Of a DNA stretch of 64,000 nucleotides, positions 17,716 to 23,560 are shown in pieces (position 1 is the stretch's first letter; each line of letters starts with the position of its first letter). Below the pieces are notes generated by a model, which saw nothing but the letters and a program-made list of their open reading frames with translations, made no database searches and was not told the origin of the DNA. A program made the position numbers and the translations under genes. Location of the stretch: the NCBI GenBank assembly GCA_900079685.1, contig LT599018.1, positions 1,200,970 to 1,264,969 of the forward strand, given 5' to 3'. The stretch is from an uncultured delta proteobacterium. GTDB taxonomy: Bacteria > Desulfobacterota > Desulfovibrionia > Desulfovibrionales > Desulfovibrionaceae.

Positions 17716-17757
17716 GACGAAAAAGCTCTTGCGGTTTTCCGCAAGAGCTTTTTCGTC
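17716..17757. terminator. Bidirectional terminator between GntR and YidC-sulfatase genes
   Basis: A perfect 19-pair stem with TTTT loop (17716-17734 and 17739-17757) carries A-runs and T-runs on its two arms. It separates convergent genes ending at 17691 and 17801 and can work in both directions. Confidence 0.92.
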
Positions 17758-17800: not shown

Positions 17801-20416
17801 CTATGGCCGGGGGATGGTCCAGTTTTCCTTGCGGAACATGGTGCCGCGCACCGTGGCGATTTTGGCGGGGGTATAGACCGTTCTGCCCTGCACCTCAATC
17901 TGGCGCCAATCCGTATCAAAGTAATGCTCCCGGACCCTGCCCGGGCCAGTGTCCGGCTCCGCGATGCCGGGGCATCCCCCTATGGCCCGGCAGGCAATGG
18001 CCGGGACGTCCATGGAGCTCATGATGTCGGCGCTTACGCGGAAGGGATCGTTGTCGCCGAACGGCTTGACCATCAACAGGGCGTGCGGGCGGCCGGGGTA
18101 GTCGTAGGGGTCGTCCTGGTCCCTGTCGTGCCACCCTTCCACGGGCAGCCTCAGGGCGGAGCGCAGCATGCCGCTGTCGGCCTCGCAATGGTCCGAGACC
18201 AGGATAATCATGGTGTTGTCGTACGCGCCTTGTTTGCGCAGCCAGTCGAAAAAGTCCGCCAGCATGTTCATGGCGTGCAGTTCGCTGTAAACGTGTTCGG
18301 GCACCACTCCGTTGATGCGGGTCTGCTGTTGCGGCGTCGCCGGATACGGGTCTTCCACGGGGATGAGGCTGTCTTTGGGCAGACGCCAGAAGAGGTGCGG
18401 CAGCATGCTGTACAGGATGCGGAAGGTCGGGCGCGAGGCGCCCGTCCGGAACATCTCGGGCAGCAGCCCGAGCACCGCGCTCTCGTACAGGACGTGGGTC
18501 ATGTCCGCGCCGAGCACGCTCCGGGAGGCGTTGTGCAGCCAGACGCCGTCCCTGTAGACCGACGCTTTCAAAAAATGCGGCACGGCCTTGAACAGGCCCA
18601 CGGAGAACAGAAAATCCGTGAAATAGTCGCGGTGCGTGCCGGCATCGGCCAGGCCGATCCTGCGGGCCCACTCCTCCCGGATGCCGGCCATATCCGGCTT
18701 GTCCAGGATGCGCGGCTTCTTGCCGCCCGTTTCCCGCTCCAGAACGGCCGCATCCAGGGCGTACAGGGGATGCAGCACGCCGGTATCAAACCCTTTCGCG
18801 CCGAAGTTGCGCGGCAGCACGGAAAAGGCTTCGGTGAACTTCCGGTTCAGGGTGACGTCCGGCCGCTGGTTCATCTTGTCCGGGGCAAAGCCCGGCCCGC
18901 CGAAAATGCTGGGCGCGGAAAAGGAGGTGGCAAACCCCGGCGACATGGTGTCCGGGAACCAGGTGAACCCGTCCAACCGCTTCCGGAGGGTGGGGTCTTC
19001 CTGGAAAAGCGCGTCCATGTGCCCGCCGGTGAACATATCCAGGAAGAAAATCAGCACATTGGGTTCGGTCTTGCTCAGGTTGAAAAACTCGCTCCTGGCA
19101 ACGGCCGGGTCTTCCTTGTTCCCGATCACGGTCATCTGGTAGGCTTTGTTGTCCGTGTATACCTGGAACGCCGCGTCGCCGCAAAGGTACAGGGCGGCGG
19201 CGGCCAGAACGGCGGCAAGCTTCCTGCCCTGGCGGCAATAAAACACCGCCGCCAAAAGGACCACGAGCCCCAGGAGGACGCCGCAGTCAATAAGGCTGTA
19301 GCCCGAATCACCCAGGTTGGCGGCCTTTTCCAGGAGGGTGGTGTTCATCGCGCCGTAATCCCCGGTGAGCAGGGTCGAATAGATCAGAGCCGTCAGGGTT
19401 GCAAGGAGAGCCAGAAAGGTCAGGCCGGGCCGGGCCGGAACCGGGGCCACCACACGCAGGGCCGCGCAGAGGAGCAGCCACAGCATGAGGTAGGGCAGCA
19501 TGGCTTCCATGATGTCCCAGGCCGGCAGCTTGAAGAAGTCCGGCTCGGAAAAATACAGCGCCAGCGGCGAGTGCACCAGGACCAGCAGACCGGCCACGAG
19601 CACGGCCAGGGCGTACAAAGAAGCCTCGCCCTTGACGGACACGGCGCGGTAGAGCGAAGAGAAGCCGAAGCGCTCCTGCAAGCCCTTTTTCCCCTCCTCC
19701 GTGAAGATGGCGAAGGACCGGTTTTGGGCATACAGGGAACGGGCGAAATCCGCGAATTTGCGGGGCACCAGCCGTTGCCAGACGCCTCCCACCAGCATCA
19801 GGGCGTTGTTGCCGGTCCAGTAGACCAGCAGCGCCGAAGGCGCGGCGTAGAGCAGCACCAGAAACAAAGCCGCCACGGCCACGCCCTGCAACTTGTCGCG
19901 CCGGGTGAAGCCCGAAGCGCTGAACAGGGCGCCAAGGTTGCAGGCCGTCATAACGAGCGGCAGCGCGTTGATGCCGTAAAGCAGCCCGTCCGGGCGGCCC
20001 AGGTCCGGAATGACGCCCCAGGCCAGGCCCCGGATGGGCTCGAAGGACCCGATCATATAGTAGGCGGCGCACAGGAACGGCACCTGCAGCAGAATCCCGA
20101 CGGACGAGCGCATAGCCATGAGGGGGTTGTAGGCGTAGCGCCTGTACAGGCCCCGGATGCGGTCCTGGCGCTCCCTGCCCTTGCTTTCCCGTTTGATGGC
20201 TTCCAGTTGGGGCGCCATGACCTTTTGCAGCGCGGCTTCCCTGGCCTGCATGGCTTTCGCCATGTGCTTGAGCGGGATGAACAGGATGGAGCTGACGATG
20301 GACAGGCCGATGAGGGCCGTGCCGTAGTTCCCGGTCAGCTCCGAAAGAAAGATGTACAGGTATTTGTAGGCCAGTTCCAACGGCAGGATGGTGACGGAAT
20401 AGAGAAACGTGCTCAT
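17801..20416 (-). CDS. Fusion: YidC/Oxa1 domain + membrane segments + sulfatase/phosphoglycerol-transferase-fold domain
   Basis: This 871-residue protein joins two usually separate families. Residues about 25-215 match YidC/Oxa1: NYGTALIGLS, LFIPLKHMAKAM, a charged cytoplasmic hairpin, RYAYNPLM, and further helices. Residues about 265-415 carry extra membrane helices. Residues about 450-850 are an alkaline-phosphatase-superfamily domain of the sulfatase/LtaS/MdoB type, with metal-ligand D460 in NVLIFFLD, candidate nucleophile T497 or S498 in SPGFATSFSAPS, and D742-H743 in ILVSDHCEAD. The second part would sit outside the membrane and transfer a phospho-alcohol or sulfate group. It is the last gene of a coupled operon with a four-base overlap to the glycerophosphotransferase-like gene. 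It lacks the long periplasmic region of standard Gram-negative YidC and is probably not the housekeeping insertase. Confidence 0.85.
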   Translation of the reverse strand: MSTFLYSVTILPLELAYKYLYIFLSELTGNYGTALIGLSIVSSILFIPLKHMAKAMQAREAALQKVMAPQLEAIKRESKGRERQDRIRGLYRRYAYNPLMAMRSSVGILLQVPFLCAAYYMIGSFEPIRGLAWGVIPDLGRPDGLLYGINALPLVMTACNLGALFSASGFTRRDKLQGVAVAALFLVLLYAAPSALLVYWTGNNALMLVGGVWQRLVPRKFADFARSLYAQNRSFAIFTEEGKKGLQERFGFSSLYRAVSVKGEASLYALAVLVAGLLVLVHSPLALYFSEPDFFKLPAWDIMEAMLPYLMLWLLLCAALRVVAPVPARPGLTFLALLATLTALIYSTLLTGDYGAMNTTLLEKAANLGDSGYSLIDCGVLLGLVVLLAAVFYCRQGRKLAAVLAAAALYLCGDAAFQVYTDNKAYQMTVIGNKEDPAVARSEFFNLSKTEPNVLIFFLDMFTGGHMDALFQEDPTLRKRLDGFTWFPDTMSPGFATSFSAPSIFGGPGFAPDKMNQRPDVTLNRKFTEAFSVLPRNFGAKGFDTGVLHPLYALDAAVLERETGGKKPRILDKPDMAGIREEWARRIGLADAGTHRDYFTDFLFSVGLFKAVPHFLKASVYRDGVWLHNASRSVLGADMTHVLYESAVLGLLPEMFRTGASRPTFRILYSMLPHLFWRLPKDSLIPVEDPYPATPQQQTRINGVVPEHVYSELHAMNMLADFFDWLRKQGAYDNTMIILVSDHCEADSGMLRSALRLPVEGWHDRDQDDPYDYPGRPHALLMVKPFGDNDPFRVSADIMSSMDVPAIACRAIGGCPGIAEPDTGPGRVREHYFDTDWRQIEVQGRTVYTPAKIATVRGTMFRKENWTIPRP

Positions 20417-21822
20417 TGCCCGCCCTCCGGCGCCTGATTGGGCGCCTGGCCCGGAATTTGGCTCAACGTCTGCTCAGGCGCCTGCGCCGCGGCCAGGGCC
20501 GCGCATTTGGCGATAACCCAGTCCGCGATGAACGCGCCCGAGCAGCCGAAGTTGGCGATGGTCGCATCCCGCAGCGCGGCCAGGTCTTTGCCCTCCATGG
20601 CGAGCGTCGCGGCGACGCTCTCCAGGAACGCTTCACGCGTCATGCTCCGCAGCGTTTCCGGGGTCAGCACCGGCCCGAGGCGGCGCTCGACGTCGTCTTC
20701 CCAGACGTATTCCAGATCCGATATTTCGAACTTTTCCCTGTTGCGCATGGGGATATCCAGAGTCAGCACCGGCCTCTGGTACAAAAAGGCGAAGTCGAAC
20801 CGCACCCCGGACTTGTCCGAGATCAAAAGGTCGGCCGCCGCAAGGGAGGGGCCGCCGCTCACGTCCAGATCGATGCGCACGTGAGGATCGCGGCCGAATT
20901 CCTCTTGCAGCGCCGCGATAAAAGGCTGCTCCGCCTTTTGGGAAAACGGGTGCGGCCTGATGATGACGTTGTAACCGGCTTCCGTGAGCCAGTGGATGAA
21001 CTCCGTGCCGCAATACGTAAGGCAGTTTTTTTCACCCCAGGACGGCGCCACCAGAATGACCGGCGGATCGGACATGCCGTTCTTGGGCAAGACCGTCCGG
21101 GCCAGCTCGTCCAGGCAGGGTACCCCGGCGCTGACGCATTCGCGTTCCGGCAGGCCCCGTTTTTTCTCCAGCAGGCGGATGGATTCGTGGTCGCCGTGGC
21201 CCATGAGAAAGATGACGTTGCAGGTATCGTGGGCGTTTTTGTAGTAGAGAGAAATGCCGCCCACACCGTGCAGCACGTGCGCGAGGCAGGTGACGTGGCG
21301 CGGGATCGGCATGGGGTAGCCCGGCGTGCCGATGTTGGCCGTGGTCTGCAGCATGACGCTGGCCCGGACCGCGGCGGCCCGCGCGAACGCGGCGGACCCC
21401 GTGCCGATGAACCGCGAGTTCATGTGCGGGCTTTCAATGGCGAGGCCGGGGTCCTCGATATCCATACTGAGGTACCGGAAGGGGTAGCCGCGCTCCAAAA
21501 GCGCCGCCACGATGGGCCGGAAGGTGGACCAGTATATTTTGCCCTCGGAGAAGAGCACCAGTTCCTCGCTGCGTGTTGCCGCGCGTTGCACGGGGGTGGC
21601 GGAAAACTTGTTCCGCAGGCCGTACCAGGCGGTTTTGGCAAAATAGAGCACAGCGGTCAGAATACTGATGCAGATATAAATCAGAATGTTGCCGGTTCCC
21701 GGGTCCAGATAGGCCCAGGCCGGCGCGGGAAAAACGACGGAGACGCCGAACAGCAGCGCGGCCAGGGTAAGCCCCTGGCCCGCGCGCGCGAATCGTGTGG
21801 AAAGAAAACCGCCCGTTTGCAT
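20413..21822 (-). CDS. CDP-glycerol glycerophosphotransferase-like membrane-associated protein
   Basis: The 469-residue protein starts with a signal-like segment, then a YLDPGTGN motif and a membrane helix (about 38-65). The rest resembles teichoic-acid-type glycerophosphotransferases (TagB/TagF family) and UDP-GlcNAc-epimerase-fold enzymes. Visible motifs are HVLHGVGG, VAPSWGEKN, IRPHPFSQ and DLLISDKSGVRFDFAF, the last three being the usual nucleotide and donor-binding pattern. Such enzymes pass glycerol- or ribitol-phosphate from a CDP donor to a surface acceptor. The Ala/Pro/Gln-rich tail (about 445-469) is low complexity. It overlaps the licCA gene by one base and the YidC-fusion gene by four, so the three act together. 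Confidence 0.82.
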   Translation of the reverse strand: MQTGGFLSTRFARAGQGLTLAALLFGVSVVFPAPAWAYLDPGTGNILIYICISILTAVLYFAKTAWYGLRNKFSATPVQRAATRSEELVLFSEGKIYWSTFRPIVAALLERGYPFRYLSMDIEDPGLAIESPHMNSRFIGTGSAAFARAAAVRASVMLQTTANIGTPGYPMPIPRHVTCLAHVLHGVGGISLYYKNAHDTCNVIFLMGHGDHESIRLLEKKRGLPERECVSAGVPCLDELARTVLPKNGMSDPPVILVAPSWGEKNCLTYCGTEFIHWLTEAGYNVIIRPHPFSQKAEQPFIAALQEEFGRDPHVRIDLDVSGGPSLAAADLLISDKSGVRFDFAFLYQRPVLTLDIPMRNREKFEISDLEYVWEDDVERRLGPVLTPETLRSMTREAFLESVAATLAMEGKDLAALRDATIANFGCSGAFIADWVIAKCAALAAAQAPEQTLSQIPGQAPNQAPEGGQ

Positions 21823-23291
21823 TACAATATGGTTTCCAACCGGCCCAACATGCGGTTGAGCTTCTTTTCCGAGTATTCAAGGTACCCGCGCTCAAAGCCC
21901 CACAGCCCCCAGACGTAGTCCACGAGGCTTTCCATTTCCCAAAGCCGGGTCTTTTCGCGCTCTTCCGTGATGCCGCAGGCGGTTGCGAACTGCTCGCGCG
22001 CTTCCGGGTCCATGCCCGATTCCAGGATGAAGCTGGCTATTTCCCAGATGGGATGCGCGAAGCCCGCGTATTCGAAGTCGATGAGAAGCAGATCCTTCCC
22101 GTGATCGCCGGATACCAGGATATTTTCCAGGGCCAGATCGCGGTGGCAAAGCACCTGCGGTTCCGCGTCGTATTCCCGCGCCTTTGCCAGCAGCCAGGCG
22201 CGCTGCGCCGGCGGCGCGGTTTTTTTGGTCAGGGTTTCGAATTTGGTGATCTGGTCCGCGATCAGCATGGGCGCCAGGGGCGATTCCGGCGTATGCGGGA
22301 TGCTGTTCAATACTTTCAGCTTCGCGGCAAGGCTCGCGAAAAAGCCGGGTTCCAGATCCTCGGCGACCGCCACGCGGTGCTCGGACATGAAGCGGGTCAT
22401 TTTCAGGCCACCGGGAAAGAAGAGGCTTTCCGGGGTAACGTTGAGGTCCTTAATCAGGCCGATAATCACCGGTTCCTGCTCGCGGTCGATGAACGCGCCC
22501 GTGCCGTGGCCCGGAATACGCAGGCACCGCATGACGCCTGTATGATCGCGCACCAGCCAGGTACTGTTGGTCAGGCCCTTGAGGCGCTCGGCGGGGAAGT
22601 CCACGCTGCTGAGGCGGGCGACTTCCTCGTGGGTGATGAGGCCGTAGTGCAGCGCGTCGCTGATGGTATCGGTCTCCTGCAAAAAAGGCTCTTCGATCAG
22701 CGTGGCGTATACCGGGACGCGGTCCAGGATGCGCAGCACGGCTTCCTCCCAGTAATCGTCCGGTGCGCAATTGTGCAATTCCTTGGCGAGCGCGGCGGCG
22801 GTTTCCCCTTCCCAGTAGGAAAGGCCGCACATGCTGTGGCCGGTGGCGGTCCATTTTTCCACCCGCGTGATGCGGCCGGTTTCGTCCGGGAACACTTCCC
22901 ACTCCAGCCCGTGGACGGTGGGCTGGCAGACGTACTGCGATTTGCCCGGCTGCACCCTGGAAAGCACGTTTTTGGTGAACACCACGTCGCCGTCGATCAG
23001 GAGCGAGCCGTCCAGTCTGTCGGTAGCCAGCAGAAGGGAGCTGTGGGTATTGCGCGTCGCGTGGTCGGGGTTGAACACGAATTCCACGCCGTACTTGTCC
23101 CCGAGGTAGGCGAACTTCTCCGCCATATAGCCGACGATGAGCGTGATGCGCTCTATGCCGCTCTCCCGCAGCATCTGAAGGGTCTGTTCCACGATGGGAA
23201 CACCGTTGATGGGGGTAAGCGGTTTGGGGCAGGTGAACGAAATGGGCTGGAAGCGCCGTCCGACTCCGGCGCAGAAAAGAATGGCGTTCAT
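21822..23291 (-). CDS. Fusion: LicC-like nucleotidyltransferase + LicA/choline-kinase-like domain
   Basis: Residues 1 to about 230 form a nucleotidyltransferase of the LicC type (LFCAGVGRRFQP, then CPKPLTPINGVP, and IDGDVVF at about 99-105). Residues about 235-480 form an aminoglycoside/choline-kinase fold with the catalytic CHRDLALEN (382-390) and metal-binding LIDFEYAG (403-410). One polypeptide could therefore phosphorylate a small alcohol such as choline or ethanolamine and convert it to the CDP form. This gives the activated donor for the transferase genes directly downstream. It is the first gene of the operon. No choline importer (LicB) or LicD transferase is visible, so the alcohol is not proven. 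Confidence 0.87.
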   Translation of the reverse strand: MNAILFCAGVGRRFQPISFTCPKPLTPINGVPIVEQTLQMLRESGIERITLIVGYMAEKFAYLGDKYGVEFVFNPDHATRNTHSSLLLATDRLDGSLLIDGDVVFTKNVLSRVQPGKSQYVCQPTVHGLEWEVFPDETGRITRVEKWTATGHSMCGLSYWEGETAAALAKELHNCAPDDYWEEAVLRILDRVPVYATLIEEPFLQETDTISDALHYGLITHEEVARLSSVDFPAERLKGLTNSTWLVRDHTGVMRCLRIPGHGTGAFIDREQEPVIIGLIKDLNVTPESLFFPGGLKMTRFMSEHRVAVAEDLEPGFFASLAAKLKVLNSIPHTPESPLAPMLIADQITKFETLTKKTAPPAQRAWLLAKAREYDAEPQVLCHRDLALENILVSGDHGKDLLLIDFEYAGFAHPIWEIASFILESGMDPEAREQFATACGITEEREKTRLWEMESLVDYVWGLWGFERGYLEYSEKKLNRMLGRLETIL

Positions 23292-23494
23292 ATACGGGGG
23301 TGTTCCTCAGCGTATCGCGATTGATTGTTTTATGCAGGGCCGGGCCGCTTTTTCGCGGATGGTATTATACCCGGCGCTCCGCTACATGCCACAAGCTACC
23401 CCGCCAGGCAAGGGGGTTAAGAACCCCCTCGGCCAGTAGCCTCTCAGGGCTTGCACAACGAAGCGGATCAGCATGAATTCCGCCAAACAGCAAA

Positions 23495-23517
23495 AGCGCC
23501 GGGCAGAACCCGGCGCT
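23495..23517 (-). terminator. Terminator after the cupin gene
   Basis: AGCGCCGGG pairs perfectly with CCCGGCGCT around a five-base loop. On the minus strand the stem is followed by TTTGCTGTTT. It lies 44 bases beyond the cupin stop and ends the PreA/M20/cupin operon. A smaller GGGGGTT/AACCCCC hairpin is at 23412-23428. Confidence 0.8.
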
Positions 23518-23560
23518 CCGCTTTCGCCGAATTGCGGACCCTGGAACATATCAGGGGCTG

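Follow-up and report, generated by a model that had tools for sequence, protein, structure and literature searches.

A LicC-LicA, TagF-like and YidC-sulfatase operon as a candidate headgroup relay in an uncultured delta proteobacterium

Introduction

How could a small alcohol activated in the cytosol as its cytidine diphosphate (CDP) derivative reach a transferase that works on the other side of the inner membrane? This question is raised by three overlapping genes on the minus strand of a 64,000-nucleotide stretch of DNA (the window) from an uncultured delta proteobacterium of the family Desulfovibrionaceae (GenBank assembly GCA_900079685.1, contig LT599018.1, positions 1,200,970 to 1,264,969). 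The open reading frames (ORFs) and their translations, together with Pfam and, for the first two, profile searches, give, in this order, a fusion of a choline-phosphate cytidylyltransferase-like LicC with a choline-kinase-like LicA (489 amino acids (aa), window positions 21822..23291), a TagF-like, CDP-alcohol phosphotransferase-like protein (469 aa, 20413..21822), and a fusion of a YidC-like part with an LtaS-type sulfatase domain (871 aa, 17801..20416). The first two genes overlap by one base (TAATG) and the last two by four bases (ATGA). Both overlaps, as well as the three domain calls, had been made in an initial annotation of the sequence, and the ORFs and the Pfam and profile matches bear them out; an artefact of open frames was ruled out, all three proteins being conserved in other genera.

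Results

A constant pair with a changing headgroup supply

The transferase and/or the YidC-sulfatase fusion were found at 15 loci, namely the window, another locus of the window genome (L036), G001, G011, G042, G109, G125, G138, G142, G150 (spread over three contig pieces and counted once), G165, G180, G441, L005, and L006. Gene order in relatives, by which the initial annotation had proposed to test its idea, is kept in 12 of the 15, where the two genes adjoin; at the remaining three (G001, G150, and L006), a contig end cuts the locus on one flank of the fusion, the transferase is missing from the flank that can be read, and a search of the L006 metagenome-assembled genome (MAG) did not find it at E ≤ 1e-5. 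The gene that would activate the headgroup is the variable component. At 11 of the 15 loci, a gene for cytidylyl activation is found no farther than about 5 kb away: LicC-LicA in the window, G165, and L005; LicC alone in G042 and G125; a TagD-like protein in G011, G180, G109, G150, and L036 (there, 4.5 kb away on the other strand); and, in G441, a phosphoenolpyruvate (PEP) mutase fused to a cytidylyltransferase, accompanied by a phosphonopyruvate decarboxylase, both above the curated cut-offs and encoded on the opposite strand at a distance of 2.8 kb from the fusion. A PsrA-like dehydrogenase there scored below its cut-off. No such gene was seen within about 5 kb at G138, G142, G001, and L006. 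The window genome itself holds two versions, the Lic type in the window and the TagD type at L036, so that the likeness to “teichoic-acid or phosphocholine” chemistry drawn in the initial annotation was apt. The TagD-like matches score 61–79 bits against an equivalog cut-off of 165, and glycerol-phosphate is therefore not assured as the headgroup at these loci.

The nearby transporters seem to fit the headgroup supplied. A BCCT transporter accompanies LicC at G125 (and also at G033, where no fusion was found), a GlpT/PgtP-like carrier, below the curated cut-offs, accompanies TagD at G109, and aminoethylphosphonate-type ATP-binding cassette (ABC) genes lie between the second pair of the window genome and its TagD-like gene (581.8, 363.2, and 362.7 bits against cut-offs of 593, 458, and 393). 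This part of L036 (14065-18959) holds a gene for a PIN-family toxin along with the phnS2/T2/U2-like ABC genes, all on the opposite strand.

The trees reflect the same division. In the transferase tree, the TagD-type and Lic/PEP-mutase-type loci split at 100/100 (G138 and G142, with no visible supplier, counted as TagD type by sequence); in the YidC-domain tree, the TagD types are united at 100/100 (G142 and G001 counted likewise) and the Lic types form a grade. Because the pairing persists while the cytidylyl supplier and the transporters change, the constant core of the system is the transferase plus the fusion, and the headgroup supply is what varies. Glycan genes near three loci, namely a heptosyltransferase-family protein and another glycosyltransferase at G180, a nucleotide-sugar dehydrogenase and a polyprenyl synthase at G011, and an epimerase and a glycosyltransferase some 6 kb away at G441, hint at a glycan acceptor. 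Two further neighbours are recorded here for their own sake: two adjacent large proteins (969 and 1113 aa; L069 1873-8120), neither matched in Pfam or NCBIfam and both encoded divergently from the G441 pair, and a 575-aa protein to which no kind was assigned, directly downstream of the G150 fusion (L094 6789-8516).

The YidC-sulfatase fusion

The fusion combines a 60KD_IMP match (7.3e-17; above the cut-off in 12 of the 12 fusions scanned) with a Sulfatase match (3.1e-8; 33.7 bits against a cut-off of 25). Pfam, alignment, and tree place the YidC-like core at residues 1–215 (19772..20416, minus strand); Pfam and alignment place the sulfatase or alkaline-phosphatase-superfamily domain at residues 452–746 (18179..19063, minus strand). 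The best solved relative of the latter is LtaS (profile search, 4.5e-5). A crude hydropathy profile gives eight helices, three in the core and five between the core and the sulfatase domain. The metal residues, loss of which the initial annotation had named as grounds for doubt, are intact: D460 (E in G042), T497, D742, and H743 are kept in all 14 fusions compared, with the GDH of G042, misaligned at D742, read separately and two G150 copies outside the alignment. H674, within a stretch that aligns with “HYPF” of LtaS, is retained in each of the 13 rows that align in this stretch.

The YidC-like core differs from true YidCs in the groove. At the groove position, all of the 16 true YidCs have lysine and none of the 13 fusions does, these having S, N, F, A, or T (serine in the window); in this count, G150 is represented by its N-terminus, two of the 13 are near-copies from G109, L006 and G138 lack the region, and the true YidCs come from 27 queried loci, five of which had no ORF and six of which gave wrong-frame rows that were dropped. 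The corresponding residue of Escherichia coli YidC, likewise positively charged, is R366. A tree of the same 13 and 16 sequences, in which several branches are long, sets the fusions apart from the true YidCs by a branch at 100/100.

The two halves of the fusion appear to change at different rates. The tandem fusions of G109 (L067 10649-16121) are 98–100% identical over residues 1–180 and 20–41% identical beyond residue 240, which suggests a recent partial duplication or conversion of the YidC-like platform. The G042 fusion is 45–57% identical to that of the window in the YidC part and 18–31% beyond residue 360, and has no Pfam sulfatase match, its transferase domain being strongly diverged or different; the window fusion and its paralogue in the same genome (L036) share 12 to 48% identity beyond residue 300. 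Judged from these comparisons, the YidC part behaves like a common platform that carries fast-changing or exchangeable transferase domains.

The activating enzyme and the transferase

Headgroup activation to the CDP form is strongly backed by homology. Pfam matches NTP_transf_3 (1.5e-10) and Choline_kinase (8.4e-14) on LicC-LicA, and a seven-row family profile finds pneumococcal LicC (1jyk, 3.7e-50), pneumococcal choline kinase (4r77, 2.8e-29), and the phosphonate cytidylyltransferase PntC (6pd1, 4.7e-22). The LicC-like domain spans residues 1–213 (22653..23291, minus strand; profile and alignment), and the LicA-like choline kinase domain, with CHRDLALENIL from residue 382 and LIDFEYAG from residue 403, spans residues 219–466 (21894..22637, minus strand). 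Mapped by hand, D102, W131, Y180, E206, and D208 align with active-site positions of pneumococcal LicC; the counterparts of W131 and Y180 are W136 and Y190, which we take to be the Trp and Tyr of its aromatic box. LicD (PF04991) had been called absent, and indeed gave no match at E ≤ 1e-4 in the window genome, which is 95.4% complete; it was found in three of the 14 genomes searched, on contigs other than those of the fusion and transferase loci. LicB is not in the operon, and no genome-wide search for it was made; at the G165 locus, a weak EamA match (0.0046) matched no LicB among solved structures.

The transferase matches Glyphos_transf (PF04464) at residues 213–353 (20764..21186, minus strand; 1.5e-6, 27.9 bits against a cut-off of 22.1), as do, above the cut-off, four of the six family members scanned, G165 and G011 scoring below it. 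Its nearest solved relatives by profile are Cps3D (0.0015), TarL (0.0042), and TagF (0.064). Ahead of the catalytic region, the protein has a hydrophobic N-terminus, the sequence AWA|YLDPGTG, and a second hydrophobic stretch. The motif [AS]xA|Y[LM]DPG[TS]G (21691-21720 in the window) followed by a hydrophobic stretch recurs in all 11 transferases with the N-terminus on the contig, among 12 compared (for the G180, G109, and G138 models, it is uncertain where translation starts), and may be where a signal peptidase cuts to leave a fixed mature N-terminus. The name “glycerophosphotransferase” is best taken as a family label only, and use of a CDP-alcohol donor is inferred from the gene neighbours alone.

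A proposed headgroup relay and its alternatives

We propose, with about even confidence, that the three proteins form a relay that hands a headgroup from the cytosol to the periplasm across the inner membrane and so decorates the cell envelope. LicC-LicA would phosphorylate an amino-alcohol, most likely choline, and convert it to the CDP form, a step for which the homology is strong. The membrane-anchored TagF-like enzyme would then, on the cytosolic side, shift the phospho-headgroup from cytidine monophosphate (CMP) to a membrane-bound carrier, either a lipid or a lipid-linked sugar, as its family membership and constant pairing with the fusion suggest. The loaded carrier would get to the outer leaflet beside, and perhaps through, the YidC-like part, and the LtaS/EptA/PptA-like domain would receive the phospho-headgroup on T497 and pass it to a periplasmic acceptor, for which lipopolysaccharide (LPS), a glycan, or a protein are candidates; for these two steps we reason from the architecture and the intact active site. 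In this scheme, the carrier, the acceptor, the part played by the YidC-like domain, and the transferase's use of the CDP product are all presumptive. We take the core machine to be headgroup-flexible because, in relatives, its two proteins sit by a TagD-like gene or near the PEP mutase-cytidylyltransferase. The headgroup need not be the phospho-alcohol predicted in the initial annotation, because the G441 relative lies near phosphonate-synthesis genes. A conserved gene order with a changing supply of activated headgroup is what the surface decoration inferred there would predict; its chemistry, acceptor, and surface site are hypothetical.

A more specific version, which we regard as tentative and on balance doubtful, is that the YidC-like domain is an insertase turned dedicated lipid path, or scramblase, fused to its own transferase and fed by interchangeable CDP/CMP-activating modules for choline, glycerol-phosphate, or phosphonate. 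A lipid path through the YidC part is plausible because purified E. coli YidC has been reported, in the part of a preprint available to us (PMC10491306), to scramble lipids in liposomes.

Several observations weigh against the relay, which is itself assembled from genes and homology, with a hypothetical carrier and acceptor. H778, a further histidine of the sulfatase part, is kept in just seven of 14 fusions; PF00884 scored above the cut-off in four of the 12 fusions scanned, below it in four, and not at all in four; and an AlphaFold2 model of the fusion, built on five shallow alignment rows, had a mean predicted local distance difference test (pLDDT) score of 40. At the position of pneumococcal LicC D105, four of four LicC-LicA proteins have D but three LicC-only proteins have H, A, and E, and at that of D192, four of four aligned LicC-LicA proteins have E (both positions, hand-mapped onto the alignment, and the roles of the LicC active-site residues are taken from the accessible part of PMC6697681). 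These mixed signals are why choline is a likely but not a proven substrate. The genome search found no BCCT transporter in the window genome, and a Pfam scan of the neighbours found no glycan genes adjoining the window operon. Moreover, G004 (89% complete) carries LicC-LicA and no fusion was found in it, so LicC-LicA is not tied to the fusion system. In that genome (L046 637-3437), LicC-LicA adjoins a protein judged by eye to be GT-B-like (without a Pfam or NCBIfam match), perhaps as part of another phosphocholine pathway.

Among the alternatives, two parallel decorations, a scheme that we consider unlikely, would have the TagF-like enzyme replace LicD and decorate a lipid-linked glycan in the cytosol; the fusion, independently of it, would transfer phosphoethanolamine or phosphoglycerol taken from bulk phospholipid in the manner of EptA or LtaS. 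The failure to find LicD in the window genome favours this scheme, as does the discussion, in the accessible part of PMC10434233, of phospholipid headgroups as donors for such transferases; the pairing in 12 of 15 loci (the rest cut by contig ends), the gene overlap, and the parallel trees suggest, to the contrary, a single pathway. We find it rather unlikely that the operon makes a teichoic-acid-like polymer, with the TagF-like enzyme building a short poly(alcohol-phosphate) on a lipid and the fusion extending or ligating it outside. The nearest solved relatives of the transferase (Cps3D/TarL/TagF) and of the fusion (LtaS) point that way, and so do the TagD-like partners and the GlpT/PgtP-like transporter at related loci, but choline, with its one hydroxyl, is not chainable, and the idea fails for the Lic version of the window if choline is the substrate.

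Modification of proteins, in which the YidC-like part would handle a client during insertion and the fused domain would add a phospho-headgroup to it, as PptA does on pilin, strikes us as quite improbable: the YidC fold and the cytosolic hairpin sequence are retained, and the phosphocholine of pilin is a precedent (PMC10434233, in part), but the groove lysine that all 16 true YidCs carry is missing from every one of the 13 fusions, no client gene was noticed beside the loci, and three loci lie near glycan genes. Finally, synthesis of a phosphatidylcholine-type lipid that the other two proteins modify has a precedent in Treponema denticola, where LicCA and a cholinephosphotransferase yield phosphatidylcholine (PMC8590670, in part), but is very improbable here, given that no CDP-alcohol phosphatidyltransferase is encoded in the operon, to which the search for one was limited, that the partner is of the TagF type, and that sister loci carry TagD or PEP mutase.

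Distribution

The system is patchily spread. A transferase profile gave four matches at E ≤ 1e-15, that of the window genome included, among 395 genomes across the phylum (one weak, G442) and 11 at 1e-10 among 149 genomes of the family (one weak, G113); a profile of the sulfatase part likewise gave 11 among 149 family genomes (one weak, G175). The three weak matches were judged to be other proteins. Taking the two family samples to be the same draw and counting G113 and G175 as having neither gene, nine genomes have strong matches to both, one to the transferase only (G042), one to the fusion only (G001), and 138 to neither (Fisher p 1.3e-12, uncorrected for kinship); the G001 genome is 74% complete, and its contig ends 21 bases after the fusion gene. 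Such a patchy pattern suggests that the genes were either repeatedly lost or horizontally acquired. A search of viral contigs found a single partial match to the transferase's N-terminal motif and none to the sulfatase part, and plasmids gave no match to the fusion; with these searches near-empty, there is no support for a phage or plasmid origin. The L005 contig (1-18603) comes from a MAG titled Gastranaerophilales; about 2.5 kb of it match the G042 contig at the protein level, and it is probably mis-binned, so no claim of a wide distribution rests on it. The fusion gene of L005 shows a frame change.

Boundaries and neighbourhood

The operon is flanked by a GntR regulator, an oxidoreductase, a cupin-like protein, and a peptidase (Pfam). 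Between it and the convergent GntR gene lies a terminator-like inverted repeat on the minus strand (17720..17753; a perfect 15-bp stem, an A4 loop, and a T-run), which was spotted by reading the sequence and is not among the sites given by the terminator scan. On the other side, pattern scans on the same strand place a sigma-70-like promoter match (10/12; 23364..23392) before LicC-LicA and a terminator-like site (23493..23519) between the operon and the upstream cupin-like gene. Across the region, 13 terminator-like sites were scored against a mean of 6.0 in shuffles, and three promoter-like sites against 1.0. The boundary sites are pattern matches, and a single transcript for the three genes, although compatible with them, is not proven by them. 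The Gram-negative host posited in the initial annotation is confirmed by LpxC in the window genome, which marks the organism as LPS-bearing.

Discussion

The operon can be set against several known systems. Activation of choline to CDP-choline by LicA- and LicC-type domains links it, by homology, with Lic-1 (LicABCD). It is not a Lic-1 system, since the genome search found no LicD; the operon also lacks LicB and carries a TagF-like enzyme and a YidC-LtaS fusion in their place. LicC and LicA are joined in one protein in T. denticola LicCA, as here, but there the protein feeds a lipid cholinephosphotransferase, whereas here its neighbours are TagF-like and alkaline-phosphatase-superfamily proteins (PMC8590670, in the part accessible to us). 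The fusion, a putative transferase, shares with PptA, EptA, and LtaS the superfamily match, the metal and nucleophile residues, and the predicted helices before the domain; it differs in its N-terminal YidC-like core and in having its own CDP-headgroup supply in the operon. The system resembles teichoic-acid synthesis by TagD and TagF/TarL in its transferase, which is of the TagF family, and, at sister loci, in the TagD-like supply, but the transferase here is about 440–470 aa long, has a hydrophobic N-terminus with YLDPGTG, is paired with a YidC fusion, and belongs to an LPS-bearing host. Phosphonate tailoring by Pnt (PntC) shares the cytidylyl activation of a phosphono-headgroup, as in the PEP mutase-cytidylyltransferase of G441; the accessible part of PMC6697681 names LicD-like transferases or glycosyltransferases, and “YidC,” “sulfatase,” and “glycerophosphotransferase” are absent from the main text. 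With YidC/Oxa1 insertases, the fusions share the 60KD_IMP domain but lack the groove lysine. We found no description of the three-gene combination in the open-access literature, to which the search was confined, subscription papers lying outside it, and the accessible part of a Bilophila paper (PMC12125255) does not mention licC. Of the combination that the initial annotation supposed to be new, the LicC-LicA fusion by itself is known from T. denticola.

The operon bears on a specific question. PptA, a member of the alkaline phosphatase superfamily, places phosphocholine on pilin; according to the part of PMC10434233 available to us, evidence that any one species has both Lic-1 and PptA is currently lacking, and the pathway supplying the phosphocholine donor of PptA is given as unsolved. 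By grouping a Lic-type CDP-choline supply, a TagF-like transferase, and an alkaline-phosphatase-superfamily transferase, the operon makes the question of the PptA donor testable with three proteins, and the window locus is a concrete candidate for a link between a Lic-type supply and a PptA-like transferase. The YidC fusion, in turn, offers a way to test whether an insertase fold was recruited for lipid movement in nature. If the scramblase reading is true, the fusion would be a new kind of flippase-transferase, a single polypeptide that takes a lipid loaded with a headgroup through the membrane and then unloads it, and would provide a missing link between cytosolic CDP-headgroup pathways and periplasmic alkaline-phosphatase-superfamily transferases. 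Surface phosphocholine on an LPS-bearing host, if present, would also bear on host mimicry.

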